DNA from: Lepisosteus oculatus
Taxonomy: Eukaryota > Chordata > Actinopteri > Semionotiformes > Lepisosteidae
Length of the DNA: 64,000 nt
NCBI RefSeq assembly: GCF_040954835.1
Contig: NC_090706.1
Location: 38,883,148 to 38,947,147, forward strand
Direction: 5' to 3'
Below, piece by piece: positions 8,094-63,484 of this stretch (position 1 is its first letter; the number at the start of each line of letters is the position of its first letter). A program made the position numbers and the translations under genes. The notes under the pieces were generated by a model that saw only the letters and a program-made list of their open reading frames with translations, searched no databases and was not told the DNA's origin.

Positions 8094-8247
8094 CTGTTGA
8101 TATCACTATTTAAGCACACTGCCATGATGTCACTACTGAAGCACAATACCATGATTTCATTACTGCAGCCCAATGCCATGACGTCACTACTGCAGCACCA
8201 CGCCATAATATAACGACTAAAGCACAACACCATGATGTCACTACTCG
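8094..8247. repeat. 27-bp minisatellite
   Basis: About five to six diverged units of 27 bases with the pattern gccatgatgtcactactg plus agcacaata; clear unit starts fall at 8121, 8148, 8175, 8202 and 8229. One unit contains a perfect CRE palindrome TGACGTCA (8179-8186). Confidence 0.8.
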
Positions 8248-16974: not shown

Positions 16975-18651
16975 AGGAGTGGGACCTTTTAAAAATAGTT
17001 CTCAATTTGCAAATTCCTTGCCTTTGAATCAAAGCGAGAAAGAATCGTAGGGAGACGCATTTTGGGAGCCTGTCCTCCCCTGAGCCCCAAGGAAAGAGTG
17101 TGAAGGTGTTGAAGCAGAAAAAAGAAAGAAAAATCAGCAAAACTCCTCCAGTTAGCTGCACACTGGAGCCTCACTGACTAATTGCCTCAGTCTGTTAAAG
17201 ACGGCTCTGAAGGCCGTGTGGTGGCTACCTGCTGCCTGCCGTGTTCCTCACACCTCCGATTCCAGCTCGCGGCACAGGAGAGCAGAGGGCTCCGCTGGGA
17301 AAGACCGGCCTAACGGTGGAGCTGCCGAGGCTGGTATTTTTAGGATGTGCTGCAGTGCTTTAGAAAATCACTGCTCGGTCCCAAAAAAATATCAATTATC
17401 AGGTCCTAGGAGTGAGCTGCTGATTATCAGTAATCACTTTGCTGTGTTGCTTGTAGTTTGGTACGTTTAAGCATCCTAATGCACTTAATGCGTTATCAGG
17501 CAGCATAATTCATCCTTTCTGGAAGTCACAGGAGGCATCACCACACCATCCCACCTCCCGCGGCCTCCCTTAGAGGTCCAGTCCCAGCACTGACACGAGC
17601 AACTGTATCAACTCCCACAGGGGAGACATGCAGAAGGAACTGCCTGCTTCTGTTGAGGTTCCCAATATTATCACAAGGTGCCCCATCAAGTCAAGTCCCT
17701 AAATTCACTTGGTACCCATAGATTGATATCATATAGAGATTCCAATACAAACCCTTGATCCCTGCAGATTTCTTTCCATTCCACCAGGGTTGACCGGGAA
17801 ATGGTTGCAGAGCTTGTCTGCTGTTCACGAATACAGTATGTATCGCACTGATGGGACTGTTAAACGTCTGCTTGTCTCTGGCTTTCTTGTGACCTATGAC
17901 AAATAGATCACAGCCGTCTACTTTTCCCATGACCAAAAACATGTTAATAAAGATCATTTCGGGGATTTCTTATTCTTTCCCAAAATCTATCTCCCCCCCT
18001 CCAACATTCCTCCCCCCAGTGAAGTATCACAAAATAAAGAAATTGCAGTAGTGCTTGGGTGCGTCAGATCATTCAGAATTAAATACATATTAATAAAGCT
18101 TAAATGTTTTCTTTTTTTTGTTTGTTTTACTGGTGTTTTACACCTGAGTCCAAACCAGGGTTAGCGACCCGGACTGTTGTGGGTTTGACTAGTTACTTCT
18201 TAATTGTGTCTAAAAAAGGAGGGTCAGCTTACCTCACCTGAGCGTGCACACAATCACAGTATTTCATTGGGAAGCCCCTTCCAACTTGCCAAGTTGCACG
18301 AAAGGGGCCATAGAAATCAAACTCGATTGGACTTCCTGTTTTATGACAGTGTTCTCAGGATAGCAGCTCCTCTGCCGTTCTGGAAGCTGTCAGCAAGTGA
18401 CCTGCGACTCAGAGACCTCAGCTCGACACCACGCCTCTCCTCTGCACTGAGCTCAGGCCTGTGACTGCTGCGCAGACGCTATTATAGATTTGTTTGTACA
18501 TGCATGGATTTTTAATAACATCCATATTATTAAGATATGTAATGCATATTTAAAAGTGTTATGTAGAAAATCTAATTTTGCAAACAAGGCAACGGAATAA
18601 GAAGATGGCATTAACATATAAACATATTCATATTTAGGAACCAGTAATACA
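16975..18651. other. noncoding; TAAT-rich at 17385-17515
   Basis: 17385-17515 holds atcaattatcaggtcc, ctgattatcagtaatcac and gtttaagcatcctaatgc, a candidate regulatory patch. No exon recognised. Confidence 0.35.
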
Positions 18652-18721
18652 GTAGGTTTATTCCCTCCTGAAAAGAGAAGAAAGAAAACACAACGTTTCG
18701 GCCGTGGAGCCTTCTTTTGCA
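18652..18721 (-). repeat. repeat 3-prime tail with hammerhead-like core, copy 2 (damaged)
   Basis: This - strand copy of the tail at 22467 has the same GGC stem and gaaacgttgtg. The start of the core reads caaaaga instead of ctgaaga, so a ribozyme here would be inactive. Confidence 0.55.
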
Positions 18722-21868: not shown

Positions 21869-22112
21869 GGTGGTGTGGTGGCTCTGTGGCTCAGGATCTG
21901 CGCCTGTGGCTGGAAGGTTGACGGGTCATATCCTGCGTCCGGCAGAGGAATCCTACTCCGTTGGGCCCCTGAGCAAGGCCCTTAACCCCAGCTGCTCCAG
22001 GGGCACCGTATAAATGGCTGACCCTGCACTCTGACCCCCAGCTTCTCTCCCCGTCTGTGTGTCTCATGGAGAATAAGTTAAGGTATGCAAAAAGACAAAT
22101 TCCTAATTCCGT
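21869..22112 (+). mobile_element. tRNA-derived SINE, family A
   Basis: The head reads like a tRNA promoter (gtggctcaggatctg as A box; the B box is degraded to gggtcatatcc). It is followed by a body with ggcccctgagcaaggccctt and a tail ending near cctaattccgtatc. It matches the elements at 25022, 25491 and 38764. The family is common in ray-finned fish; I do not assign a Repbase name. Confidence 0.7.
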
Positions 22113-22460: not shown

Positions 22461-22466
22461 CCCTCA

Positions 22467-22540
22467 CACCTGAAGAAGGCTCCACGGCCGAAACGTTGTG
22501 TTTTCTTTCTTCTCTTTTCGGCATGGAATAAACCTGTTAC
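22467..22540 (+). repeat. repeat 3-prime tail with hammerhead-like core, copy 1
   Basis: It reads ctgaagaaggctccacggcc then gaaacgttgtg, a T/C-rich stretch and ggaataaacct. The same string occurs on the - strand at 18652 and 58746. The core C-T-G-A-N-G-A, short GGC/GCC stem and G-A-A-A-C fit the hammerhead ribozyme pattern. Confidence 0.55.
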
Positions 22541-23648: not shown

Positions 23649-23714
<66 letters not shown>

Positions 23715-24439
23715 GGCTAAAATACTGTTCTCCAAGCCTATAGTTTCCCCAAACAGCACTTTACACTTAATTTATCAATCTGCAACACGTGGTTCCTTTC
23801 TATCGATGTGTGTGCGGTGCAAAACAATAGCTCTTTTCCAGGTGCCTGCAGTGGGCCAAGCTTTGTCCTGCACTGTCACCCCTTGTGACATAACTATGAC
23901 ATCGCTGGACCTATAATACATCAGCTTAACTGTGTGACAAGGACTGGGAACGTCAAACACAGGTATGTCAACACCTCTGCTACTATTGAGACTTAATATT
24001 TAATTGCTTTATTTTTAAAGAAGACATTTGTATTCTAAACCTGACTGTTTAGTGTTACCTGCCTGTTTTGCCTTTACTTTTTTTTATTTGCTCGCAAAGA
24101 CAATGTTAAAAGGGTTTTTTCCCCGTCAAGGTCTCAGCTCCATGGGTGGTCTATTCTTTAATGAGCTGGATAGTTGTGATACCGTGCTCCTGATACTACA
24201 CTAACCAGGCAACACGGTGTGTTAAGACATGGTAATCGTACCTACCAGGTGAATGCCCTGGGTGCTCAGCTGCAAAAGACCTTAAGAAAATACCTAAAGC
24301 ATTCAAATAAAATAATCAGGTTAATTAAACACTTGACTGCTCCAGTTAGAACTGTAATCATGAGACAGGTGCCTCATGGGTGAAGTTTGACGAATGTTAA
24401 CTTTTTTGAAACACTTCAGACTGAAATGCGCTTACGAAT
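22552..24439. other. noncoding, upstream of the Rab11-FIP-like gene
   Basis: Contains the (TAA)n run and otherwise no recognised feature. 22970-23300 has a repeat-like feel but no second copy in the window. Confidence 0.35.
23648..23714. repeat. (TAA)n microsatellite
   Basis: An almost perfect run of about 22 TAA triplets. Confidence 0.95.
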
Positions 24440-24965
24440 CAGAGCTCGTAGAAGCTCCCGTGTCCGAAGGCACGTGGCTTACAGCGCAGACAGAGCTCAG
24501 GTAATGGCAGCGGTCCGTTGTCTCCGGCCGGACAGGGCGACCGGCCGAGCTCCTGCGGGACAGCCTGTCCTCTGCCGGCGGATGGGGACGGCCGCCGCCG
24601 AGTGGATGCCCACACACGTCACCGTGCACGTGCACGGGGCCCGGGGCCTGAGGGCCAAGGGCCCGGCTGGGAGCAGCAACCCCTACGAGGTCATCCAGCT
24701 CTGCGAGGCGAAGTACCGCACGGCCGCGCTGGAGGCCACCACCGCGCCCGCGTGGCACGAGGAAGTCACGTTCCCGCTGCCCGCACGCCCGCCGGGCGGC
24801 CGGGGGCCCGAGCTGACCCTCAGGGTCATGCACCACAGCCCGGCGCGGGGCGCGGCCGACTGCTTCCTGGGCAGAGCGGCCATCTCCCTCGGCAAGCTCT
24901 ACGAAGACGAGCTAATGAGGAACAACAAGTACGTTTTCCTCCGAGCCCGCAACGTCTGTTGACAG
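24440..24965. other. CpG-rich block over exon 1 (probable promoter CpG island)
   Basis: The sequence changes sharply from AT-rich flanks to very GC-rich DNA with many CG dinucleotides, covering the upstream leader and the C2 exon. This is what is expected at the 5-prime end of a vertebrate gene. No TATA box was identified. A gtaatg directly after gagctcag at 24501 also resembles a splice donor, so a noncoding exon ending near 24500 is possible. Confidence 0.55.
24582..24928 (+). CDS. Rab11-FIP class I-like protein, exon 1 (C2 domain)
   Basis: This exon encodes the N-terminal C2 domain of a class I Rab11-FIP (RCP/FIP1, FIP2 and Rip11/FIP5). In known members this domain binds acidic phospholipids and helps place Rab11 recycling endosomes at the plasma membrane. 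Seen here: a short leader, then WMPTHVTV at about residues 8-15, ARGLRAKG, PYEVIQL, KYRTAALE, a WHEE motif, LTLRVMHH, and CFLGRAAISLGKLYED near residue 100. This is the family order without gaps. The family Asp in the S-D-A-Y turn is replaced (SNPY). Translation runs to the donor AA|gtacgt at 24929; unspliced reading stops at 24960-24962. The start at 24582 gives a family-like short leader. An in-frame ATG at 24504 in a better Kozak context would add 26 residues. The exon is GC-rich and CpG-rich, unlike its surroundings. Family call is strong; the exact paralogue is unresolved. Confidence 0.82.
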
Positions 24966-25021
24966 CGCTGCTTATAGCCTACAATAGACATGAAGACAAA
25001 TAAAACTTTGTATTTAATGTT

Positions 25022-25283
25022 TCTTTATTAGCCCTATACAATTTCTTGCATTAGGAATTTGTATTTTCGCATACCCCAGCTTGCTCTCCATGAGACACAG
25101 ACAGACAGGGAGAGAAGCTTGGGGTCAGAGCGCAGGGTCAGCCATTGTACAGCGCCCCTGGAGCAGTTGGGGTTAAGGGCCTTGCTCAGGGGCCCAACGG
25201 AGTAGGACTGCCGCCCGCGGGACTTGAACCGGCAACCTTCCAGTCACAGGCGCAGATCCTGAGCCACAGAGCCACCTCTCCGT
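25022..25283 (-). mobile_element. tRNA-derived SINE, family A
   Basis: This is a near full-length copy on the - strand with a good B box (ggttcaagtcccg on -). The body and tail are shared with the 21869 copy, and it ends with the - strand sequence cctaat ... ttgtatagggctaataaag. It lies inside intron 1 of the Rab11-FIP-like gene. Confidence 0.75.
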
Positions 25284-25490
25284 ATGACCTGAGATGGTGA
25301 TGGCAAGAATCATCCATCCTGGCTACAGCTGACGTAGCTTTTTTTGTTTTCCGAATTAAAAGTGGTAGAATTGTTACGTAAGGCTACAATAGCAGTTACG
25401 TAATAAGAAGATGGTTATTACTGGTTGTGCATTAGTGCATTGACATCCTGTGTAACAACACAGAGAACACGGAGCTACATGTTCGCTGCG

Positions 25491-25615
25491 CTGGCTGACC
25501 CTGCGCTCTGACCCCCAGCTTCTCTCCCTGTCTGTGTGTCTCATCGACAGCAAGCTGGGGTCTGCGAAAAGACACATTCCTAATACAGGGAATTGTATAG
25601 GGCTAATAAAGTGAT
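25491..25615 (+). mobile_element. tRNA-derived SINE, family A, 3-prime half
   Basis: This is a 5-prime truncated copy starting at ctggctgaccctgcgctctg and ending in ttgtatagggctaataaag. It is the inverse complement of the tail of the 25022 copy and lies about 210 bases beyond it in the same intron. Confidence 0.7.
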
Positions 25616-25985
25616 CTTATCTTAAATGCAGCGTCAGGAAGTATTTTCACGGTTTATCACTTGAGCAAGATTTGTAAGAGGATAAACATTGGCTTTTCAT
25701 TTTGAGAACCAAATTCGAATTCGATATTTGCCGAGGCTATGTGGAATTTTTCTTGATTTAACCTATCATTGTCTGGATCAGTCTCATTATGTATACTGGA
25801 GGTTCTGGGCCACAAGTCTTTGACTTTTTTCCAAAGTTACATCAGCTGGTGCCTGTGGCCATGTATGCAAACCAGACCTTGTCCAACATAATTGGCTTGT
25901 CTGGGAAATCAACCTGTATATGTTCATATCACGGAACATTAATTCAGTAGTTAAACTTTGCCGTTCTTTGCTGCTTCTTTCCCAG

Positions 25986-26217
25986 GTGGTTTACACTTTG
26001 TTCGAAGCCCTGGAAGAGGAAGAAACACCGAGGGCAAATTGAGCTCTCTTTCCTCTTTTTTAAGATGTCAGGGAACCTCGAGGCTCCAGTCAAGAAGACC
26101 TCCAGGTCCTTGTCTTCGATCCCTGAAAAAAAATTATTCTGGAAAAGAGACCGAATTGCATTCTGCTCATGGAGGACTAAGAAAAATGTAACCCTCCCTG
26201 TTTCTTTTCATATTTGA
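25986..26217 (+). CDS. Rab11-FIP class I-like protein, exon 2 (post-C2 basic linker)
   Basis: This exon continues the gene from 24582 across a 1057-base intron. The acceptor is a pyrimidine stretch ending in ttcccag. The split codon AA+G restores a Lys, followed by WFTLCSKPWKRKKHRGQIEL. That matches, position by position, the family segment in which a Trp-Tyr-x-Leu leads a Ser-Lys-Pro, a basic run and R-G-E-I-E-V directly after the C2 core. The phase 2 junction falls just before the family Trp, so the two exons support each other. After this the frame stays open but is poorly conserved (PVKKTSRSLSS, then EKKLFWKRDR) and stops at TGA 26215-26217. Read to that stop, the joined protein is 192 residues, far shorter than the usual 500 or more. 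A weak donor at 26188 (AAT|gtaacc) could instead lead to more exons. No AATAAA was seen soon after the stop. Confidence 0.72.
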
Positions 26218-26693
26218 ATGGAGAGAATGTGACAAAAATACCCTCATTAAGAAGAAACTTTTGTGTTGGGGATATATATTTTTTATAAGATGGCTAAATG
26301 CTTTTTCATGGAGCTGGAACCTATAAAGCGTTAATCTCTTAAAGAAGACCATCCTGCCTCCTGGCCAGGAGGGCCACAGGCCAGCAAACCAGGGAAACCT
26401 GTTAACGAGGGTTCCCGAACAGTAAATGACAAGCTCAGCTGGAAAATAACTTTGGGAACCTAGTGGGGTGTTATAAAATAATGTGTGAGCATGGCAGGCT
26501 GTGTCAGTGTCCATTGTGGGTAGAAATGAGACAGAATTCACTGCTTCACTTGGATTAAGACAAAGCAGGCAGCCATGGACAGGCTAGACGATTTACAGGG
26601 CTATTTTTATATTTCTGGGGTTAGAAATAATCAGCGTTGACGAGTGCCCTTCAAACCACAACGAAAGTAAAATGTACACATTTACTTGTGAAA
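26218..26693. other. noncoding after Rab11-FIP-like exon 2
   Basis: No poly(A) signal and no further exon recognised. Confidence 0.4.
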
Positions 26694-27205
26694 CCTCCAA
26701 TTTACAACACCAAACAGACAACATTTCCAGGTATGCGCAGTGCCATATTCTACAACTCAGAACAAGGCAACAAAACCTACAATGCCTTATGACACTGTAA
26801 ACCAGCAGGCTTGTGAATACATCTCTTTTGATCCTCTTGATACAAGTCTCGATTTTGAGATGGTTTTACTACTTGTTAACTCTGTGTGCGGATCACAGAT
26901 CATTTCTGCAGTGAAGTGTCTGCTGCACAACCTGTCCTTATTTGCTTGTACATCACAAATTAGTCATCACAGTGACTAGTGAACAGGAAGGGCGGCCTCA
27001 CGTCACAATTCGTGGGAACTCTCACTCTCATCCGAGACGAGACCAGGGGTTTGTGACAACATGGCGTCTTACAGCACTCACATAAAGTTCACAATTTTGT
27101 GCTTCGTTCAGAATCTGTAAAAGGTTTCTCTACCGTCAATGAATGGATTCTTTTTTTTTTAACCAACATTTAATAACCAGTCTGGGAAATCAGGACTGTA
27201 TATAC
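26694..27205 (+). repeat. interspersed repeat, family E, copy 1
   Basis: It aligns along about 500 bases with 54207-54722, starting at cctccaatttaca in both. Shared blocks include ctgctgcacaacctg, catcacagtgactagtga, acaggaagggc and attcgtgggaactctc. No long open frame and no recognised protein; the class is unknown. Confidence 0.6.
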
Positions 27206-27837
27206 AAGTTATACGAGCTTTGTAACCTCATTATTAATTGGATCGTACTATAGATTGTACTAAGAGAAAGATCCTTTAGATATCTGCCCAGTCATACCTC
27301 AGAAATTCTCTAAGGTGGAACAAAGGTGTGTCATTTGTCTGTAACAGGTTTTAAAATACGGGGAGCCAAGTTCGTCACCTTGTGCGCTGGACCCAGAGCC
27401 TTCTTCCTCAACATGTGTACCTGTTCGCTGCCCTGACCCGGGAGCTGGCACTGAGAGACCCTGCTCTAGCGACGGTACAGAACCGGGATTTACTTCTCAC
27501 ACCCGCCGTGCTTTTTGTAAAGGTTAGGCGGCCGCCTGTAAACACATTTCAGAGGGAAGCTGCCGAACCCTACCCAAAGAATTTGCTCGGATGACGATTG
27601 TGGGTTAAAACCTGCAAAGGGTGAAGGGAAGGGGAGCGGATGAAAACGAAAAGAAACACGGGACAATGGCAAAAGCAGCAGTACAAAAATCCACAGCAAC
27701 GTTTCCAACAATATGCTAAAAAGTAACAAAAACAACAACAGCAATAATAGGTTTTTACAAATATTTTGCATCAAACAAAAATTGTTTGCCGCTCTTTATT
27801 GTTGTTGAGGTGACTGCTGCTTTCTTGTGTCTTGATA

Positions 27838-28250
27838 CAGAAGGTTCCCCGGCAGGAATGGCAGTCAGCTTGGGGGAGGAGGCAGAGAGCAAGGCAGCGG
27901 ATGTGACTGGCCAGGACCCCGGGGAAGGCTCTTCTGTGAGGCTGGTGCAGAAAGGCAGAGCAAGCGCAGAGGCTGGACAGGACGGGCGCACCTTTCTGCT
28001 GCGTGCGGGCAGCTCCGGCTCCGGCAGGAGGAGAGTTTTTTTCACCTCCGGGCGCCTGCCCTTCGGGAGAGAAAGAGCAGGGGGGATCTTGGGCCGCCGG
28101 TCTTTAAATACCTCTCCGGGGGCGTCCACACGCGCAGCGTTCCCCCCAGTGTGTCTTAAAGACACGCAGTCCCGCCCCCTGGAGGCAGCCTCCTCTATGA
28201 AGAGAGTGTGGTGCTGTGTTTCCTGGGGGCGCTGCTGCCCCTGCTTGTGA
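27838..28250 (+). other. GC-rich block with possible further exon of the Rab11-FIP-like gene
   Basis: A GC- and CpG-rich segment starts right after a strong acceptor-like sequence (a pyrimidine run ending gatacag at 27831-27837) on the + strand. One + frame stays open from 27840 to about 28250, reading GSPAGMAVSLGEEAESK at first. The - strand is also open through this block, as expected in GC-rich DNA, so openness alone proves little. The reading resembles no part of known Rab11-FIPs that I can recall. If the weak donor at 26188 were used, phase 0 joining would hit a stop within about 22 codons here. Confidence 0.22.
28172..28185 (-). promoter_or_regulatory. CTCF-like motif
   Basis: ccgccccctggagg on + is the complement of a good CTCF core (cctccagggggcgg). 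It lies in the GC-rich block downstream of the Rab11-FIP-like exons and faces the motif at 20980. Confidence 0.38.
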
Positions 28251-29610
28251 AGGACAGCACAAGGGCCCGAGGGCCTGCCGTTCCAGGGAAAGGCAAGCAC
28301 AGATCACAACGGGGCTGAGACATCTAACCCAGCACCCCGAAAGACCCAGCTTCTTCCCCGGAAGCAGTCCCATGGCCAAGTGCCCTTCTGTCCCCAGAAG
28401 ACAGCACTCACATTAAAGTCAACAGCTGACCGTTCTGATAGAACAGTCCCGGTATTCAAAAGATTTACTCTGGCTGTGTTGCACTAGGTGTTTGTTTGTT
28501 AACCTTCACAAGAAAAAGAAAAATCACCATGAAGTTAGCGCTTAAAGTTTGCATGCACACAGACTGGAACAATTCGCTTCATATCCACAGCCCAGGTAAG
28601 GTATAATACTGAGAGCTTTGTTATGCCTCAGAAAACAGCAGGTGTTTTGTTCTGCCAATTAGACAATGTTTCCACACCTGAAGTGGCACAGGTTTTACCC
28701 CTTCAGCCCTGCCAAAAGTGTTAAGATGATAACAATACTCGGTTATTCTTAGACAGTGCGTTCGCTCCAACCAATCAGTTCGTCTCGTGCCAGGTATCAG
28801 CCACAGCTTCATTAAGGATGCAAAAACCTTCAATTTAACTTGTGTAACATCTCCAAATGAGAAAGTAGAGTTTCAAAATCAAATAATACAGGGGGTTGAG
28901 GGAAAAAATGTCAAATATGTGAACAGTAAAATATGACACAGAGGATCTAAACAAGCTCTTATTTTTGCATGACTGACAGTGAAGTTCTACAGGGGCTAGG
29001 ACAGCTAAATTAACTGGCCAGCCCTCATGGCATTTGCCTAGTCGAACCTGCAGTGAGCGAATGACCGAATGAGCAGTGAAATTCATAGTCCCCTCACTAG
29101 GACACTTCAACCCTCACTTATATTGGGAGAATCTCACATGTAAGACCAGTTCACGAGAAGGGCGATGGAATGGAATCAGGAAGCTAGTAGCTATCAGACC
29201 CATCAGCCATGCTGTGGTTCCCAGTATAGTTACGTATATGAGGGTCACAGCCACGTGAACAGCAAACTGTGGCATATTAAAAGACTGGATGATTTAGAAA
29301 AGGGAGTTCTTGCGAAACATGCTAGAAATGCTCAGACTTGTTAAGAGACCTCAGGATAGCACTGGAGCATGCGGTGTGGTACAGATCAATTGGCCTTGTG
29401 CCACATGCAGAACCAAGTACATCAGAAATACATCAGAAAGAACACGATGAGAGGAGGCCCTGAGGCCCATCGTGCACACTTGTCCTATTTCTCTACCGCC
29501 CCAGAACAGGGTCCGTTTGTACTGCTTTGGAACCAACACCCCCACTATGAAATTCCCTCAATGAAAAGGATAGTTTACAGTAGCCAGCCAAACCTTAACC
29601 TGCAAGACTC

Positions 29611-29748
29611 CTGGAAGTGGGAGGGAACTGGAATAAACACAAAGAGAGGTGGAACATGCAGATTCCACACAGACAGGCACACCAAGCTGGAATCAAACCC
29701 ATGATCATGGGGATGTGAGTCAGCCTTGATAACCACCAAGCAAGCCTG
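29611..29748 (-). mobile_element. SINE family B, 5-prime fragment
   Basis: A - strand fragment recognisable from ggaacatgcagattccacac and ggaatcaaacccatgatc, which are the complements of the family head and B-box region. The 3-prime half with the ggatgg tail is missing. Confidence 0.5.
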
Positions 29749-37300: not shown

Positions 37301-38763
37301 TATTGGGTTATAATACCATAGCTACTGAGGAGCGACTTCCTTTTACAATAACGTTATTCATGTTTTTCAGAACAGAAAAAAAGAAGCAAGTGAAATTTCG
37401 TTACACCGATCAGACTTTCCAAGTGCACAATGAACACAGATATTAATAGTGAAATAAGAGAAACTTGCTATCAGCTTACTGACACTGAAGTAATAGGCTC
37501 TTTGTGTTATTGTGGGTTTTACAAGGTCTATACATTAAGTTTTTATAGGAACCCCCTGGTCACCTTTAAAACTGTTGTTGGTAGTTGTGCAAGTAGGGGA
37601 TATTTACTATTTATAGCTCCTTTATTCATTGTCCTGGCAAGGGATGCAAGGTGGTCAAGGTTTTGCTTATTATGGATCTGAACAGTTTGACCAAAAAAAA
37701 AAATGGAGGGCAAGCCAGCACATGAATGAGCCACCTGACATGAATCAGATGGACTGATGTGAAACTTGACCACCTGATGGACAAAGGGGAAGCCTCACCA
37801 GCACACAACACAACTGCCCGATCCCCATTAGACAGACTGACAGCACAGCTGACCAGCTCACAGGACACACCCGACTGTCTGATACTCCTCCGATGGGCCA
37901 CTTTGAAGCGTGCCAGCCCAGGCCTTGGTGGCCCGTGTCACAGCTTGACCGACCACGCGGGCCGAACCACAGTTTGCGACCCGCTTGTGCGGACAGTGGT
38001 GAAACTGGGGAGGGCGTTTCGTTCACATGGGAAAGAGCTAAAGTGCTTTAACAAGGGAACTGTGATTAAAATTGAGCCAAGCAGAATCATGCCCAAACAC
38101 CACTGCCACAAGGCACCTATGACCCAGGAACCACTGAGAAAATGGTAATATAACGACATAAGCACTGGCAGCAGCTGGTACAGAGGTATTCAGGGTCAAC
38201 AGAAAGATTTTACTCAGAAGACAAATGTGAAGACACTTACACTTACTTGAGATTACAGTTCTTCAGTGTGAAATGATGAATCGTGCCGGTGGTTTTCACC
38301 ATTTAAAAACTTTTCAATTCAAACTTCTTTTAAAACTTGCATAAGCAACCAACCTCTACGCGACACAACACACAGGCTAGAACACTACGACAATCTGAAC
38401 AAAAAATTAGAACACACAAAGGCGGGAGGTGCCATCCTCTGGAAAACAAACCAACACAGTATCAGTTCAGTTCAGACGAAGCCAGAGTCTAGAGCGCGCA
38501 TAAACTGCTGCAATGAGCACACCATCTCTCATTACTTTTACAGACACAGCGCCAGCGGGTTCCAGTTCTGGAAAGAGCTGGATTGTGGGTCTCATGGGCT
38601 GCACCAGTGCTGCGTTCATTGCCATAGTCATTCATTCAAATGGAAAAAACAAATAAAGCTGTTTGGGTCCTTGAGTGAATGCAGGCAGATTTAAACTGGT
38701 AGCTTGTTTTCCAGTGAACTTTACGGAGGATGAATATATTTTCTTGCCTTATAACATCACTTT
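34352..38763. other. noncoding; regulatory-like at 36655-36880 and 36990-37240
   Basis: 36655-36880 and 36990-37240 combine balanced composition with TAAT and bHLH-like cores. A GC-richer stretch at 37750-38020 is open in several frames without a recognised product. Confidence 0.35.
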
Positions 38764-39008
38764 ACAATTTCTTGCATTAGGAATGATCTTTTCACATACC
38801 CCAGCTTGCTTTCCATGAGACACACAGACAGGGAGAGAAGCTGGGGTCAGAGCGCAGGGTCAGCCATTTATACGGCGCCCCTGGAGCAGTTGGGGTTAAG
38901 GGCCTTGCTCAGGGGCCCACCGGAGTAGGATTCCTCTGCCAGCTGTGGGATTTGAACCAGCAACCTTCCAGCCACAGGCGCAGATCCTGAGCTACAGAGC
39001 CCCCGCTC
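38764..39008 (-). mobile_element. tRNA-derived SINE, family A
   Basis: This - strand copy shares the body, the B-box region (gggatttgaaccagc on + is its complement) and the tail ttgcattaggaatg with the copy at 25022. It is nearly full length. Confidence 0.72.
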
Positions 39009-42000
39009 CGCCCCGAAATCCCCTGGGGATGAAATCGTATATTTACGCGATGATAAAGGAATTCAGGAATATCAGCTGACAGGGCATTGTAAGCTATTAT
39101 TTTGGAAGCTGTTCTCATTGAAATGGTATTGATAATTTTAATAGTACAATGAAATTCTATATTACGAAAGTTGGTCCTTGGTTACATGAGCATTAACAAC
39201 AGTAGAACAGTAGGTGAAAAAAAGTGTCTGGATTTCGGATCTTCCTAGGTTTGAAAAACCAAATTAGGCGGTCTGCACCTCAGGCCTAAAATTAAATAAA
39301 AGACCTCTGAAGTATCAAGCAGCAATTAGCTGCTTTTTTGAAATGAGAAGATGAAAACGGAAAACGTTTCTCACTTGCCAACTGAAAGCTTAACACTTTG
39401 AATTGTCACTTGGGGCAATTTTTTTGGGTACAGGTATGCTTCTTATCTGAGGAATTTTTTGTCCCATAAATTATTTCTCTTGATAAAAAGAACCAAAAAG
39501 TCCTCACTTGTCTATCTCTTGCCTTTTTTACCACTCTCATACCAGGGGGTAGGGAACCACCTGATAGAGCAAAGGTTTTTTCCAACATGGGCCTGGTTAG
39601 ACAGCAATACAGAGGGCCCCAGCCTTCAGCAAAGACACGTCGCTTTACTGCAGTGCAAATTAATAACAGTGTGCATGAGAAGAGATTTGCCTGTAGAGGT
39701 ATACCAAATCTTGCATCATCCATGCCTATGGCCTAATCACCTTGGAACATGTCAGATCCTAGCAGGCAAACAGATCTGGCCTTGTCAGTGCATGGCTGAT
39801 TTGGCAATCAGATCCTCAGTCTAAAGGTGTTCACGCCATCTCACTGGAGCGATCGCCTGCGTTCTTATGTCCTTACCTGGCCCCTGTAAGTTTGTGGGGA
39901 TAATTTAGGGATCAACAGCTAACTGCAGTTAAAGTGTAATATGCATATGACAAGGCTGTGGAGAAATGGTTATACTCTTCCACCTTACTGCATTGTTTTG
40001 CAGAAATTGTTTTTATGGTAAGATGCGCATACAGCTAGATTACAGCATGGTCAGATATTTTCCATCCCCTTCCGAATTCATCTGATTCTATCCCGTTGGG
40101 TTTCCATATTTTGTTGCTTTTTTGTTTTCGTTTCTAAAAATATCATTAAAATTGTTAGAAAAGAGTCTTTAAGATCTGTGATATTCAGAGCTCAAGCAGA
40201 TTGCCAGAGACAGATTTTCTTAGCATTGAATTAGCTGCAAAGTGTAGGACTACCGGAATTTAGACAGGGTTTTCGCTGGTTGTCTAGTTTGTGGTGGTAA
40301 AAGGTCTTAGGTGACTCAGCACCTTCAATGAATCGACGTTCAGGTTTCGTCTTTAGATCCAGAGAAAATGAACAATTTCACAGATCGGAGAGAGAAAAAA
40401 TATACAGCAGAGCAGCCTAGCGCGGCGAAATGAACGTGGAAAAGGAATTCATGACACGACTCAAGGAAACCTGCTTCAAGTGTTTATTCTCACAGTCTTC
40501 TAAGTGCCAATGTGAGCTGTACATTAGTCGTATAACAGTGCCCAAAGGAGAGGCGTTGGCAGGAGAAGAAAGAGTCTCATCAATGTTTATTAATCATCAT
40601 CATGATATGATAATGTAATTGCTGTGTTATTTTTAAACCAGCAAAAAAAAAAAAAACCCACAAGGCAGTTTTGGCTACAGGCACACTTGATTTAATTAGT
40701 CACACACATCTGCGTAAAACAACGCGACTGTTTCTGCTATAAACAAGAAAGCAAGTAAGCAAGCAATCAATATGTCAAAGCAGGTCACCTACCTCGCTTT
40801 TGTTGTTTTGCAGTATACTTCATGACAGAAAAAAAAAACTAGGCATTGAAACTCTAAAGCGAGTCTGTGATGGGAACTGCATTTGCTTTGTATAACAGTA
40901 GAATTTATTTAATCTTTATATTATTACAAGCCAAGGGAAGGCAACTTTAAGCAACAGAACATAGGACTGCAGTTTACATACTTGTGAACTATACAAGTTT
41001 TCACCAGGATCCCTCTTTCGAGAGTAGCGTCTCCCAGATTAGACCGACTCTTAAAGATAAGGAAGGGCCTCAGACCATTCTCCACTCTGCAAATGAGGGT
41101 TTGCCTTTCAGAGAACACAAACCTGAAGGGACTAGTTGTAGTTCTTCCCTTATGTATTTCAAACCTGGATCCCCAGTCTGCAGCAGAAAGCACAACAAAT
41201 ACAATCTGACATAAGGATTAGCATATTATAAAAACAAGCCTGACTACACTGGTAAGCATCTTACTTCTCTGTTATAAGATATTCACCAGTCTTTTTTTTA
41301 ACTATGTTGTATTCAGTAAAAGAAAATTGACTCAAATCTCTCATTGCAAAAATAAATCGAGCATCTAGACTGATCTAACCTTCATTAAAATGCAGACTGA
41401 AAATGAAAAAAAGTGGATTGGATTACATCCCCAGAACACATCCCATTCATTGCATTATCTAGGATACTGAATGTATATTTCTCCCCAGCGCATCAATAAT
41501 AGCTATAAAAAAGAATACTTTTGGGGAAAAAATTTAATATGTTCTTTTTATGCAAACTCCAGTTTTGATTCACAAAATCAGTCAGTTATGACTCCCTCAC
41601 TTGAATGGCAGCACCCTATAATTGTGATTGTTTCTCAAGGACTTCCCAGCCAATCTATGAAAAGCAAACAGGTGGCCGCAAAGGAAACAAGCTCTTCCAC
41701 TCTGTAAAACAGGCTAACTAGCTCCTGCCACTTGCCAGGCTGCAATTATCATATCATTTGTGTTGTAAATCACGCTGGCTCTTGTCATGTTATCATCAAC
41801 CACACAACAATTATCTGCCATGAATCAACCTGATCTGTTTGCAGACAGAGCTCTGTAGGATCCCAGGACACAGAAGACTCAATGGTAACACTTTCACCAC
41901 TAGGTTCATGGACACAACACGGAAGCCGATGTGAATGAAATATTTGGGGCTTGACTGTTTAGGGCCGCTCAATGCCTAAAAGGTTGTAAAGGTGCCTGTT

Positions 42001-53400: not shown

Positions 53401-54206
53401 CACCTTCGTGCGCCATTGATGCTCACTGCGTTGTGGGAAAACTGGATATTTCAGCCATGTCTGGGGTCACTCGTAACACGGCAGGGGTGCGGTGGGTGGG
53501 AGCTGTGTCCGTGCGCGTTAGCTGCAAAGGAACGGCGTAATCTGTAAAAGCCAAAACATTGTGCTTCATCTTCCCACTTTTTGAGTGTGGAATTAACCTT
53601 TACTCACCTCTCCTTAGGGTGGCAGGGCTGCAGAGTTGGGAACTGACTCGAGATTTTGAAAGCCTGGGCTCAAACTCGCACGTCCTTAGTGCTACTTCCC
53701 TCAAAACAAAATCTTCGATTTTTTCTTTGGCAAACGATGAACACAATTTTGTTTTAAGAACAGAAAAGAAAAAAATGTTATATATAAGAAAAGTAATCAC
53801 AGTTGCTGTTTAAGAGTGGCTAGCTCATTTATTCTGAAAGCAGATGAAAAGAGGTTTTAAAGTCAATAAACTCAAACCAAGGTGTCTATCCTGATAGAAC
53901 TGTCATAGTATTCTCACTAAGAATCTCACAAATATACTAGGGTCTGATTTATCTCAAATATGACAACAATATACGAAAAACATACCAAGACCTCTTTATA
54001 TACTATAAATACTGAGGACACATTTTTATTTTTTCTGTCCTACAATGTTATTTCTCTTTTTGTCCCTGTCATATGAAGAGATTTTGACTTTTTTTTTCCA
54101 CAGCTACGTAAAGGAGTCACTGACCTTGACTCATTTTTTGTCCAAACGAGAAATAAAGCTGAGTAGCACCCAGAGTGACCTGACAGGTAATGAACATTCG
54201 CCTTAA
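50456..54206. other. noncoding, inverted repeat at 53052-53131
   Basis: AT-rich to 52900, then CpG-richer to about 53550. No exon recognised. Confidence 0.4.
53052..53131. other. 80-base inverted repeat with 10-bp perfect arms
   Basis: tcaaacaccc and gggtgtttga are perfect complements 60 bases apart in a locally CpG-richer stretch. Confidence 0.45.
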
Positions 54207-54722
54207 CCTCCAATTTACATCCCAAAATAGATTAAATGTCCGGTATGCGCCGCTCCATAGTCTGCAACTGAGAACGAGGCAACACAACATCCGGTGACTT
54301 GAAGCGGCCATATTACATTGTAAACAATCAGACTAGTGCATCTCTTTTAATCCAAAAGAAACATCGCTCTCGATTTTGAGACAAATACTACTCGTTAACT
54401 CTGCATGCAGATCACATTTCTACGGTTGATTGTCTGCTGCACAACCTGTAATTATTTGCTCCCACATCGCATTACCTTAATCATCACTGTGACTAGTGAG
54501 CAGGAAGGGCCGTATCAAGTCGCAATTCGTGGGAACTCTCGCCCTCGCCCGTGATGAGACCGGGTGTTTGCAACAACATGGCAACTTACTGTATTTTTAC
54601 AATGTTCACGATTTTGTGCCTAATTCGAAATTTGTAGATGTTTTCAATAAAATCATTGAATTTATTTTGATACTGAGATTTAATAAACCTGTCTGAGAAA
54701 TTGGCACTGCAGTTTCCCTTTA
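54207..54722 (+). repeat. interspersed repeat, family E, copy 2
   Basis: This copy has the same orientation as the one at 26694-27205. It ends with ggcactgcagtttccctt, a terminus of the kind seen on short non-autonomous DNA elements, but no clear terminal inverted repeat was found. Confidence 0.6.
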
Positions 54723-56150: not shown

Positions 56151-58745
56151 GGGGATTCAGAGCCACAGCGAATAAACACTTAGCACCCAGACACGTTGAC
56201 AGCAAATATGTCATATAAGACATAAAATGACCGATGCATTTAAAGCGATCAAAAACTAAACAGGGCATTTTACAGTTTATTGTATTTAAAATAGATATTT
56301 CAGTCGTCAAACGCTATCATTGTCTTGAATTCGAATTATGCGTCAAATCCGATTTTTTAGTTTACTTTCGCTGCGTTTTTCTAGGTTTATCTATTTTTAA
56401 TTTGGATAATGTTTGCAGAATTCGTCGTATCCTTGTACGTTGGTTAGATTAACGATCTGCTTCTCACGTTTTTTATATTTTTTATGAGGCGCTGCGTCAA
56501 AACACGAATAGGTACAAACGTGCCTGTTGTCTGTACGTTCACATCGGATCCTGGTGTACAAGTTAGACAACGTGAAAGCAAATTAAGACCGCTTATTACA
56601 GTCTTCACTACAACACAATCTATTAGATGATATGCAACAATATTTCAAACCATTCCATGAAAATCAAAAGCCATTACTTGATTCCTATATTTTTACCAAT
56701 TAGAAATTAACTATTTAACGGTTTAGTGGTGGAGGGCACTGTGGGGTCGTTGGTGTAATTTGGACCTGAAAGTCTTTTAACTAAGATGGAATTTTATCTG
56801 TGAAAATAAGAAAGATGAACTCTTCCCCCACACATTTTAATTTCACAATGAATACACATGACAATGGAACGATCATTCTGCAAAGTACAACAATCAAATG
56901 CTTAATTCAATCCTGAAGATGTACAGTATTGATAATCTCCGATGAAGAATTCGGAGTAGGTCCACACCTGAAACACACGTGTGATTCAGTCTGCTGACAC
57001 AATCGACTGGGTTTTAAATGTTGAAAAGGGAACAAACTTTTCTGAATCTGCAACAGAGTATTTGGATAAATGTCTGAATAACAAAGAAAAAAAACTTGTT
57101 GCCTGAACAACAAATAGTTGAAATCACAGATTCAGCATCGGTGTCAGAAAACGAATATGAATACTTTTAATTGGCGCGGTCGGTTTTTGTCGCTGTAGCA
57201 CGCTGTACTTTGTAAAAACATGCACAACCCTTTTCTAGTATGTGCATGCATTTCAAAGCTCTTCGAGATGTCGCTGATCTGGAAAACTGCTACATTTCTT
57301 ATGGAAAACCAAAACTAATTGGAGCCGACTTCACAGTTTCCAAAGGAAGGCTGTCTGCCCGATTGGTGTATACGAGTGAATTATCCCCACACGCTAACAT
57401 TAGAGAAACCTCTGGAGTTCACCTTGTCGTTTCAGACTGCAGCTCTCTGTCGTGCAATCTTAAATCGCCTTCTGTATGAAAAGCGCACTCCCGTGTTTGG
57501 ACAGCACACACGCAAAAGCCTGAGGCGCAAAGCCGGATTGACACATTAGCCCAAAATATGAAAGAGCAGTTTCACAGAGCTATCTGAAGCCTGGCGTTGC
57601 TGAGGTAAATGGTACTGTAAATCAAATCACTTGAATTGCTGTAAGTCTTTCAGATGAAGAGTGTGCTGCGAGTTTAGCTATTTATAAAAGAGATACGTAT
57701 GTCTCTAACACACCTTAGTTCATTTCGCTAAATATATCAAATACTGGACTGATTTTTGGTACTGTACTTTTTTTTTATATTTAAGCGTACAGGCCAACGC
57801 CACCACGTTATTCATTTCCCAAATATATGTTCTTTTGAAAAACGCTAGCGTTCTGGCTGGTTGGCGCAGAACAAACCAAAACTTAAACTACGTTTTTTAA
57901 ACTACATTGCAAAAGAAGCTGTTGATAATTAGCATAACAATATTACCTAACAAAGCAGAAGGGCGTATAAAAAGGGCAACGGGGTTTTTTGTGGTTTAAA
58001 TATATTCCAATATTTCAGCACCTGATAATCATTAGCGCGCCGCCGCAATTCCAGTTTACTGGGGTGGGTTTGAACAGCACGAAAATAATCACACATAAAT
58101 AAGTAAAAATGGACCTTTATTGTATTATTAGCTGTGGACTTAAGCTAAGCACGCGAGGTTAAAGCTTCTTTTAAAATTGTAACTGTGTTCTTAAACGTAA
58201 ACACCCCGGTTTTGAGGCTTTAGAGACAGTGACGCGGGTCAGGTCTAGTACCTGGGGTCGCAGGTGCAATTCGGAGTCGCGGCTCAGCGGAACTGCGTGA
58301 CGTTTCACAAAACCAGCTGCGAAAAGACACTTCACCACCTGCGCAGGAGAGCAGCCTAAAGGAAACTTTATAAGACAAAGTTGAATGTAGTTGGCGAGGG
58401 GATTCAGGTAAGGCACCTGGAATTTCAAACACCCTTTACAGACGTCAGTTATGCGGATCTCTGCTGGCCAACAGGTAGTCCTCCCCGGAGTTGAAGGTAG
58501 TGATGGCCTTTTGCTATCGACCCCTTTGGTCCCAGATTGTTCGGTGGCCTACTGAGCACCCACGCAGTACGTTACCATTAAATGCAACAGGAATATTATT
58601 ATTATTAAGTGCATTTCCAGAAACAAACGTCAGTGTGCTTGATTTAATTTGCCTTTAAAACAAATATATTAATAGCATCTCGTGAGAGTCTGAAATGTAA
58701 CAACATACCAAACATATATACTACTATATGGGAACAAGTAATTTT

Positions 58746-58820
58746 TAGGTTTATTCCCCGCTGAAAAGAGAAGAGAAAAAACACAACGTTTCGGACGTGG
58801 TGCCTTCTTCAGGTGTGGCT
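58746..58820 (-). repeat. repeat 3-prime tail with hammerhead-like core, copy 3
   Basis: This - strand copy has ctgaaga at 58812-58806 and gaaac at 58792-58788. The intervening stem carries a mismatch (ggc against tcc). It ends in the same aataaacct as the other copies. Confidence 0.55.
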
Positions 58821-61473: not shown

Positions 61474-61641
61474 TCAGTCCTCCGAAATGACATCGATGTC
61501 CTCAGGGCTGCCCTGCCTCGTCGCCACCCTCCACCGGTTGACGTGCTGGTTCCCTTTGCGTTTCTGCTGGGACTCGGGCGCTTCTTCCTCCAGTTTCTGC
61601 CTCTTGTGTTTAGTCCTTCTGTTTTGGAACCAGACTTTGAC
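61474..61641 (-). CDS. emx3: Emx-family homeobox protein, last coding exon (partial gene)
   Basis: Emx proteins are homeodomain transcription factors that pattern the dorsal telencephalon and urogenital tract. This exon encodes 55 residues plus TGA. It opens at a cttcag acceptor in phase 0 with [20 protein letters not shown], which is homeodomain residues 45-60 and the following acidic stretch, including W48, F49, Q50, N51 and R53. It ends with [15 protein letters not shown] and EDIDVISED, the C-terminal signature found only in Emx proteins. An intron between homeodomain residues 44 and 45 is the usual Emx position. Residue 56 is His, whereas EMX2 has Phe and EMX1 has Tyr there, so a third paralogue (emx3) is the best guess but not proven. 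The preceding homeodomain exon was not found up to the right edge, so the gene is cut by the window. Emx identity is certain; the paralogue number is inference. Confidence 0.93.
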
Positions 61642-63484
61642 CTGAAGAGAACAGGAAAGGTCCGCGTTAAGAAAGTGGATTTTTGCAGACTTCACATATA
61701 CTGAAAGGCTCACTTCCCATAAGCTTCTCAAAAGTAGTCCGAGTCACTTATTTATTTTTTTTGCCTTAAGAAAACAGAGTATTTGAAACCATCAAAGTTT
61801 GATCAGAGATGTGAATCTAAGAAAGGATGCCACAGTATTTGAAGTACAAACATTTGAGTATCTCATTCATAGCCCAACATAATACTGTAACACTGGGTGT
61901 TAGTGTCCTCGGAAAGTCAGAAATGCCACATTCTTCATGGGGAAAATTGAGTGATTTATGTTTCACTAAATCTGAAAGCACTAAATATCAAACCCCCTCA
62001 TTTTTCACAAGCAGGTCTAAGCATTTCAGAAGAAAGAATTTTTCCATTTATGCGTTGTAGCAAAATGTGATTCAACAGCACTTTACATGCAGACATTCAA
62101 TAGGATTAAGAAGTAAATTATTAATATACTCACACAACAATTACCGAGAGTTTAGGAGATTCCAGATTATATTCCTTTCCAAAATAAACATATTTTCATT
62201 TATTACAGGTTCAGGTTGCAATTTTTAAATCTTTTATTTATAGTTTTAAGTAACAATCAATCTTTTATGGTGGTACCAAGTGATTGCTTGTCTAAATTAT
62301 AGCTGTCTAGTCTAAAGTGCGACACTTATTTGAAGTGAATGTCTCTATCATTACATTATCTCGGAGTGTCCCGAGAAGACTTTTTATTTGTTTCACAGTG
62401 ATTCCATTTGGGAGAGCAGTGTTTATAATTAAGTACCCAGCAATTTAGAAAGTCAAGAACTATGTAATTTAAAATTTTAATATATATATATTGCAAATAC
62501 CAAAAGCAAACAACAGATATGTTCCAGTTGAAATTCCCTTTTTACAGTTTTTTAAGGTAACATAGTTTCCTCTAAACCAAATAAAACAAAAAGATTAAAA
62601 TGACTAAATCTTCACCCGAGGCTTGAATGTTTTCTGCAAAGTATAATCACTGTAATATATGTTTCTCTTAACTTTTAAAATAGAATGATCTTATTACCAT
62701 AGAATGTTTCCATCCTGTATAATAATGATGTAAAGCCCCAACAAAAGTAACTACCGGTACATTAATATTCTTTTCAAATTGACTGCCAAGCACTGCTTTG
62801 CCTAAGGCTTCATATTATACAGTCTGCTGAAGTATTACATTTGTCAGCTTTGGGGAAATATCTTCTGCAGACTTCAGTATTCATACAAGTGTGTAAGGTC
62901 TATACAGTACGTATTCTCCCATTTCTTTTTTCTTTCTTCTGTAGTTTATTGTATGTTGTGCTTTTTTTTATAACACATTGAGTTTGTGGAAAAGCACCTG
63001 TAAAAATCATTGTATTATGTCGTTTTATAATAATCTTCCATTAGATATCTTTCTGCCACTCTTGTGCCATCTTAGTGCAGTGTCTTGTCAGTTCCTAAAA
63101 CTCCATGCAAATTGTGCAATTTTGAAATGAGCACAAAATTCAGTCTTTATGTCAACATGGCATTACTGTATCTGGTGGCCTGGGTCTGAGCAGGGCATAG
63201 GGGCTCTTGGAGACCGGTGATATTTAAACCCCAAGCGAGAATACTGGACAGGAGTTGCTTATTTTTGCAGGGAGGGTGACTGTCACATATCAGCATACTA
63301 CTCTCTAGTAGGTCTGTTGCCGTCTTTATTACTACACCAGGTGCTGTTTTCTTCTAGGATGCCTTAATTACCCATACGTGCGTTTTCAGTAACCATATTC
63401 AGCCTCAGAAGATCACAGTGAGCCTCAGAGGAACTCTAACTCAGCAGACACAGGACACAGGTTTAACTGCACTGCAGAGTAGAT
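61642..63484 (-). other. Emx intron (partial)
   Basis: This sequence lies upstream of the last Emx exon on the - strand. It begins with the pyrimidine-rich acceptor cctgttctcttcag. It is AT-rich with short AT runs near 62480, and no homeodomain exon was recognised on the - strand. It is taken as the intron that splits the homeodomain between residues 44 and 45. Confidence 0.65.

Follow-up and report, generated by a model that had tools for sequence, protein, structure and literature searches.

In the retrieved part of PMC4678287, class I Rab11-FIPs are described as three in number and combine a C2 domain that binds phosphoinositides and phosphatidic acid with a C-terminus that binds Rab11 and dimerises, and the double substitution R52A/K54A nearly abolishes phosphoinositide binding by FIP5. 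Two of these three membrane-recycling genes lie next to brain-patterning EMX genes in vertebrates, FIP5 with EMX1 and FIP2 with EMX2, each as a convergent pair. According to the retrieved part of PMC4464114, Emx1, Emx2 and Emx3 arose before the cyclostome-gnathostome split, Emx3 is retained in marsupials, amphibians and bony and cartilaginous fishes and absent in eutherians, birds and reptiles, and Rab11fip5 is one of the genes flanking Emx1. The same portion of that paper, which was the sole one containing both emx3 and rab11fip among the open-access PMC texts searched, places no FIP at Emx3, and we found no description of a fourth class I FIP in open-access PMC texts, mostly represented by their titles and the start of their abstracts.

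The window analysed here is a stretch of 64,000 nucleotides (C11:38883148-38947147) in a genome of 1.2 Gb and 813 contigs. It holds a two-exon gene (Table 1), for which the sequence-only reading had proposed a join in phase; the joined exons indeed form 192 codons in a single frame, with the stop codon TGA at 26215-26217 and splice sites as that reading described them. The donor of exon 1 is AAC AA/GTACGT and the acceptor of exon 2 CCCAG/G TGG (the slash marks the junction). Among all GT and AG sites of the window, scored with a weight matrix, the donor stands at the 96th percentile and the acceptor at the 99.7th. Both anchors recognised earlier, K-W-F-T-L and R-G-Q-I-E-L, are present in the joined product, and the reported loss of the Asp of S-D-A-Y is seen as D33N, in a column that is invariant across the three FIPs of this genome and their three human counterparts. 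The product shares with the class I Rab11-FIPs FIP1/RCP, FIP2 and FIP5/Rip11 the W-x-P-T-H-V start and the C2 domain, but differs from them in its length of 192 residues, in its own short basic tail and in the N for D at SD-Y. The 78 bases upstream of the start (24504-24581) exhibit no codon periodicity (p 0.62), and a single-sequence structure model of exon 1 has a mean pLDDT of 44.5.

Table 1. Positions of the features discussed, in window numbering
Feature	Position	Strand	Description
Possible in-frame N-terminal extension, or 5' untranslated	24504-24581	+	upstream ATG at 24504, frame open
Exon 1	24582-24928	+	start and nearly all of the class I FIP-type C2 domain
Intron 1	24929-25985	+	GT...AG, phase 2, 1057 bases
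Exon 2, first 26 residues	25986-26063	+	last strand of the C2 domain
Exon 2 tail	26064-26217	+	about 50 basic residues, then TGA
CpG island, probable promoter	24451-25050		three overlapping 300-base windows over exon 1
SINE-like repeat family	21880-22107, 25034-25282, 25492-25611, 38760-39010		87-91% identical between copies
Last coding exon of an EMX gene (EMX3 candidate)	61474-61641	-	homeodomain positions 44-57, 2e-4 (Pfam)

The Pfam C2 domain matches the open frame of exon 1 with an E-value of 5.2e-15 (1.7e-15 counted from the ATG), and no domain is matched in the open frame of exon 2. In tblastn on the window, human FIP1, FIP2 and FIP5 match exon 1 with E-values of 5.7e-21, 8.7e-22 and 2.4e-13, respectively, and reach 0.001, 0.035 and 0.002 for exon 2, with the matches to the two exons collinear and on one strand. 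For neither exon did any of 1000 shuffles score as high against any of the three human proteins, and the 192-residue product is 43%, 39% and 40% identical to FIP1, FIP2 and FIP5 over the whole alignment. The similarity of exon 2 to FIPs ends about 26 residues past the junction, just where the C2 domain ends. A profile built from six canonical exon 2 sequences matches these first 26 residues (E 1.2e-7, with two sequences searched), and the start of the exon matches the genome's own FIP2 exon at 1.9e-4 (tblastn); the remainder of exon 2 does not rise above shuffled sequence, its score against the three human FIPs being reached in 751, 788 and 916 of 1000 cases.

Extended synaptotagmins, Munc13 and PKC have the C2 fold in common with the window product, although their similarity to it is far weaker than that of the FIPs. 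The best PDB match is Extended synaptotagmin-2 (2.6e-6), within a set of 21 matching sequences that includes no Rab11-FIP. According to the sequence-only reading, a FIP would be contradicted if an unrelated C2 protein matched best; when this was checked within the genome itself, the first non-FIP C2-like match reached only 0.016. The PDB and own-genome searches together rule out an unrelated C2 protein.

Searching the genome with the 192-residue product returned 11 matches at E<=10, namely exons 1 and 2 of the window gene, the first exon of one locus each on contigs C1, C2 and C4 (2.4e-17 to 4.8e-14) and six matches from 0.016 upward. The class I C2 loci of the genome are four, these three and the window locus on C11. 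The three FIP matches that follow the self-matches are 40-50% identical to the window product, and the lack of any close copy in the genome rules out a recent tandem or segmental duplication. The loci on C1, C2 and C4 were named FIP5, FIP1 and FIP2, respectively, from their similarity to the human proteins. FIP2 is the clearest assignment (81% in exon 1), whereas the locus on contig C2 was named FIP1 through its other exons and by elimination, because its exon 1 resembles human FIP2 (63%) more closely than human FIP1 (56%).

Intron 1 interrupts the W codon in phase 2 at an identical site in the window locus and in the genome's own FIP1, FIP2 and FIP5, where the donors are GA/GTAAGT, GA/GTAAGT and GA/GTAGGT and the acceptors CAG/G TGG, CAG/C TGG and CAG/G TGG. 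The intron itself is about 7.8, 16.9 and 33.6 kb long in these three genes, compared with 1057 bases in the window locus, where it holds an inverted pair of SINE-like elements (25023-25144 and 25492-25611). Since the ancestral intron site has been kept, a retrocopy is excluded, as is a chance join of two exons, against which the splice-site ranks and the shuffle tests also stand. The window gene is a member of the class I Rab11-FIP family by descent. The earlier proposal of a class I paralogue apart from the three other loci of the genome stands on the own-genome search and the intron site; that it encodes a working Rab11-FIP does not, since the conserved exon-2 block and the Rab11-binding domain are missing.

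The right-hand part of the window contains the end of an EMX gene, a neighbour absent from the earlier note that places the locus among the ohnologues of the two genome doublings (2R). Human EMX1 matches positions 61477-61698 together with two exons just past the right end of the window (4.2e-26); these outer exons lie at 64109-64294 and 80115-80477 in window numbering, giving a gene of three exons on the minus strand. Its homeodomain is split at 43/44, with positions 1-43 in the second piece (64109-64294) and positions 44-57 in the last exon (Pfam). Both the open-frame and the splice-frame scans of the window missed this last exon, which was found only via the neighbouring exons.

With the second EMX exon as query, three EMX loci are found in the genome at E<=1e-10, on C11, at C1:28861138 and at C4:32396121. 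Because the other two lie near FIP5 and FIP2, we take the C11 gene to be an EMX3 candidate, an assignment made by elimination and not by a tree. The distance from FIP to EMX on C11 is about 35 kb from stop codon to stop codon; between the EMX exon-2 match and the RBD match it is about 61 kb on C1 and about 157 kb on C4. In all three pairs, EMX1-FIP5, EMX2-FIP2 and EMX3 candidate-window gene, the two genes stand tail to tail, and the class I FIP that has no EMX match is FIP1 on contig C2. The arrangement therefore resembles the convergent EMX1-FIP5 and EMX2-FIP2 linkage of vertebrates, but here a third EMX is involved, and its FIP partner is distinct from FIP1, FIP2 and FIP5. We consider it very likely that the window gene descends from 2R as the fourth class I FIP ohnologue, and this origin rests on position next to EMX rather than on the tree, in which the pairing described below may reflect composition bias. 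In the simplest history, one ancestral FIP-EMX pair would have been doubled twice to give four FIPs, of which FIP1 lost its EMX; the fourth locus with its EMX neighbour would complete the quartet expected from the two genome doublings.

Trees were built with five, seven and eight sequences, human references among them, and a composition bias in them is likely. The unconstrained seven- and eight-sequence trees pair the window locus with human FIP1, with ultrafast bootstrap support of 66 and 77. The branch leading to the window locus is 1.3 substitutions per site long, whereas those of the six canonical sequences measure 0.15-0.36, in keeping with the strong divergence that the sequence-only reading had noted. 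The pairing, together with a best local match to FIP1 (ARGLRAKGP), would fit a later duplicate of FIP1, or a true FIP1 orthologue with the gene on contig C2 as the extra copy. Furthermore, one pairwise test of six ties the exon 2 tail to the genome's own FIP1 exon 2 (score 45, 1 of 1000 shuffles as high), whereas 342 to 844 of 1000 shuffles score as high against the five other FIPs and the tail ranks 654th of 981, not above shuffles, against the six-sequence profile; an origin of the tail from a later FIP1 block via internal deletion is a lead only. However, exon 1 of human FIP1 and that of the window gene are both extremely rich in Ala, Gly, Pro and Arg, which can draw them together, so that the pairing may be a bias, and an AU test of eight fixed placements rejects one (next to the genome's own FIP2) and retains seven, fourth-lineage ones included. 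In addition, the EMX neighbour is common to FIP2 and FIP5 but not to FIP1 on contig C2. A FIP1 affinity of either kind is thus unlikely.

ZNF703, ADGRA2 and ADRB3 are FIP1 neighbours. At the FIP1 locus on contig C2, an open frame (L012 7376-8923) lies beside FIP1 that we take to be ADGRA-like, with no match from Pfam, and a search for Ala_racemase_N (PLPBP) in the synteny check of this locus gave no match, which is uninformative for a spliced gene.

The similarity to FIPs at the window locus does not extend beyond the C2 domain. Canonical class I FIPs carry an SMFDLSMKDK-type block after C2, and the window product is without it; the corresponding pattern R-N-N-[ML]-[TS]-A-S-M-[FY]-D-L-S in exon 2 occurs at the loci on C1, C2 and C4 only, and an 80-residue piece of FIP1 that runs from the junction and includes the block likewise finds these three loci only. 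The Rab11-binding domain RBD-FIP (PF09457) has seven matches genome-wide at E<=0.001, none of them on C11. Searches for 3' exons covered window positions 26064-64000 plus 20 kb, and 1-24500 plus 10 kb, with 94 kb read in all; exons 2 and 3, the big exons and the RBD exons of the genome's own canonical genes gave nothing below E 0.5 around the locus, and the RBD exons no match below E 0.8 in the flanks. Four further RBD-FIP matches lie outside class I, on C9, C19, C7 and at C4:63.9 Mb. Human class II FIPs are two (FIP3 and FIP4), and the RBD-FIP matches outside class I here number two more.

A full-length fourth Rab11-FIP, with C-terminal exons that are more distant, have diverged beyond recognition or are absent from the assembly, is conceivable insofar as canonical introns reach about 34 kb, only 94 kb of window and flanks were read and RBD matches were considered only at E<=0.001. 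Against it, none of the RBD-FIP matches falls on C11, the exon 2 frame has no usable donor (the highest-ranking one, at 26188, reaches the 87th percentile) and the EMX gene, on the other strand, follows about 35 kb downstream, and we regard a full-length gene as highly improbable. No AATAAA occurs between the stop codon and 29632, with weaker variants nearer, and because the next AATAAA is only at 29632 the 3' end of the gene is not defined. That 94 kb hold no remnant of later exons suggests that the 3' half was lost long ago while exon 1 stayed open. The lack of 3' remnants next to a still open exon 1 is a better argument for function than the open frame, although a single large deletion could also explain it.

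Within the C2 domain, human FIP5 R52 corresponds to E42 of the window product, at a position occupied by K or R in all six canonical sequences, and K54 is kept as K44. One of the two mapped lipid-contact residues is therefore charge-reversed and the basic patch is not intact. From the residues at this patch, weaker or altered phosphoinositide binding would be predicted. The computed pI is 10.1 for the whole product and 10.7 for the tail (residues 143-192).

Across the 64 kb, only the windows of the CpG island over exon 1 combine GC >0.55 with a CpG observed/expected ratio >0.65; this ratio reaches 0.97 in 24401-25000, compared with 0.50 in the window as a whole. The first exons of the genome's own FIP1 and FIP5 fall in similar CpG windows at a looser threshold of GC >0.5, and that of FIP2 does not. 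The GC content of exon 1 by codon position is 0.67/0.55/0.94 (periodicity p 1.7e-10); no codon periodicity is found in the intron (p 0.84), and none that is significant in exon 2 (p 0.2 and 0.14). Exon 1 retains 30 of the 40 residues that are invariant in the six canonical FIPs, and exon 2 retains 13 of 31. Novel residues in exon 1 occupy 10 of 40 invariant columns as opposed to 31 of 63 variable ones (p 0.012), and their rarity at invariant columns indicates that the C2 core of exon 1 stayed constrained on the window lineage. The constraint is clearly looser than in the canonical FIPs, because these change 0-4 of 40-44 invariants each, and it is absent from the exon 2 tail, where 13 of 18 invariant columns have changed.

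In neutral simulations, which comprised substitutions only, without insertions or deletions, 328 of 1000 runs at the GC of exon 1 itself (45% identity) left this exon open, as did 73 of 1000 at GC 0.42, and both exons remained open in 30 of 1000 (45% identity) and 58 of 1000 (60%). Since neutral sequences often stay open, the open frame of exon 1 alone proves little. Its survival by chance in one third of the runs at its own GC would also suit the main rival reading, a decaying relic, that is, a fourth ohnologue that has lost its 3' half and its function and whose exons are recognisable because the decay is recent or slow. The long branch, the absence of the RBD and of the best-conserved block of exon 2, the charge reversal in the lipid patch with the lost SD-Y Asp and the unconstrained tail are all consistent with such decay, but both exons are open and their splice sites intact, the CpG island is intact, exon 1 exhibits codon periodicity and a pattern of constraint, and remnants of the 3' exons are absent although exon 1 is open. 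A relic is possible on this evidence, though we doubt it, and a working C2-only gene is favoured over it. Given 2R descent, a working C2-only protein is likely from the sequence features described; the complete reading, a fourth 2R class I FIP ohnologue that lies beside EMX3, was cut to two exons and encodes a working C2-only protein, is somewhat less secure but probable.

Such a gene would be transcribed from the CpG-island promoter to give a protein of about 192 residues consisting of the C2 domain and a short basic tail. The product is predicted to be a soluble or peripheral membrane protein, with the C2 domain acting on acidic membranes or lipids with changed specificity. It could neither recruit Rab11 nor be recruited by it, nor could it dimerise via the C-terminal coiled coil, which it lacks, and its most likely action would be on the lipid side only, as a membrane binder uncoupled from Rab11. 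It might thereby compete with FIP1, FIP2 and FIP5 for membranes, work apart from them or serve a new membrane. More tentatively, the EMX3-linked FIP could be a standing Rab11-free C2 protein of dominant-negative-like or lipid-only action within the recycling machinery, kept together with EMX3 and lost together with it in eutherians, birds and reptiles, a reading that we consider doubtful at present. The locus offers a clear example of an ohnologue losing its effector half while the membrane half stays open and, if translated, a natural separation of membrane binding from Rab11 binding that makes this division testable.

Elsewhere in the window, 20 of the 55 open frames of at least 100 residues were compared with Pfam and none passed the curated cut-off, two weak hits among the 20 (E 0.03 and 0.05) being disregarded; a splice-bounded frame scan of the window gave 50 candidates, none recognised by eye, and no Rfam family or tRNA was detected in the window. 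At 27720-28303, long overlapping open frames occupy both strands of a GC-richer segment with no Pfam match above cut-off. A repeat pair of about 425 bases (26692-27102 and 54205-54619, 75% identical) has one copy just behind exon 2, and a second short interspersed repeat is found at 18613-18716, 22465-22535 and 58702-58817 (83-95% identical between copies). The window also contains a 27-base tandem repeat of 5.5 copies at 8098-8245 and a pure (ATA)21 microsatellite at 23650-23713.
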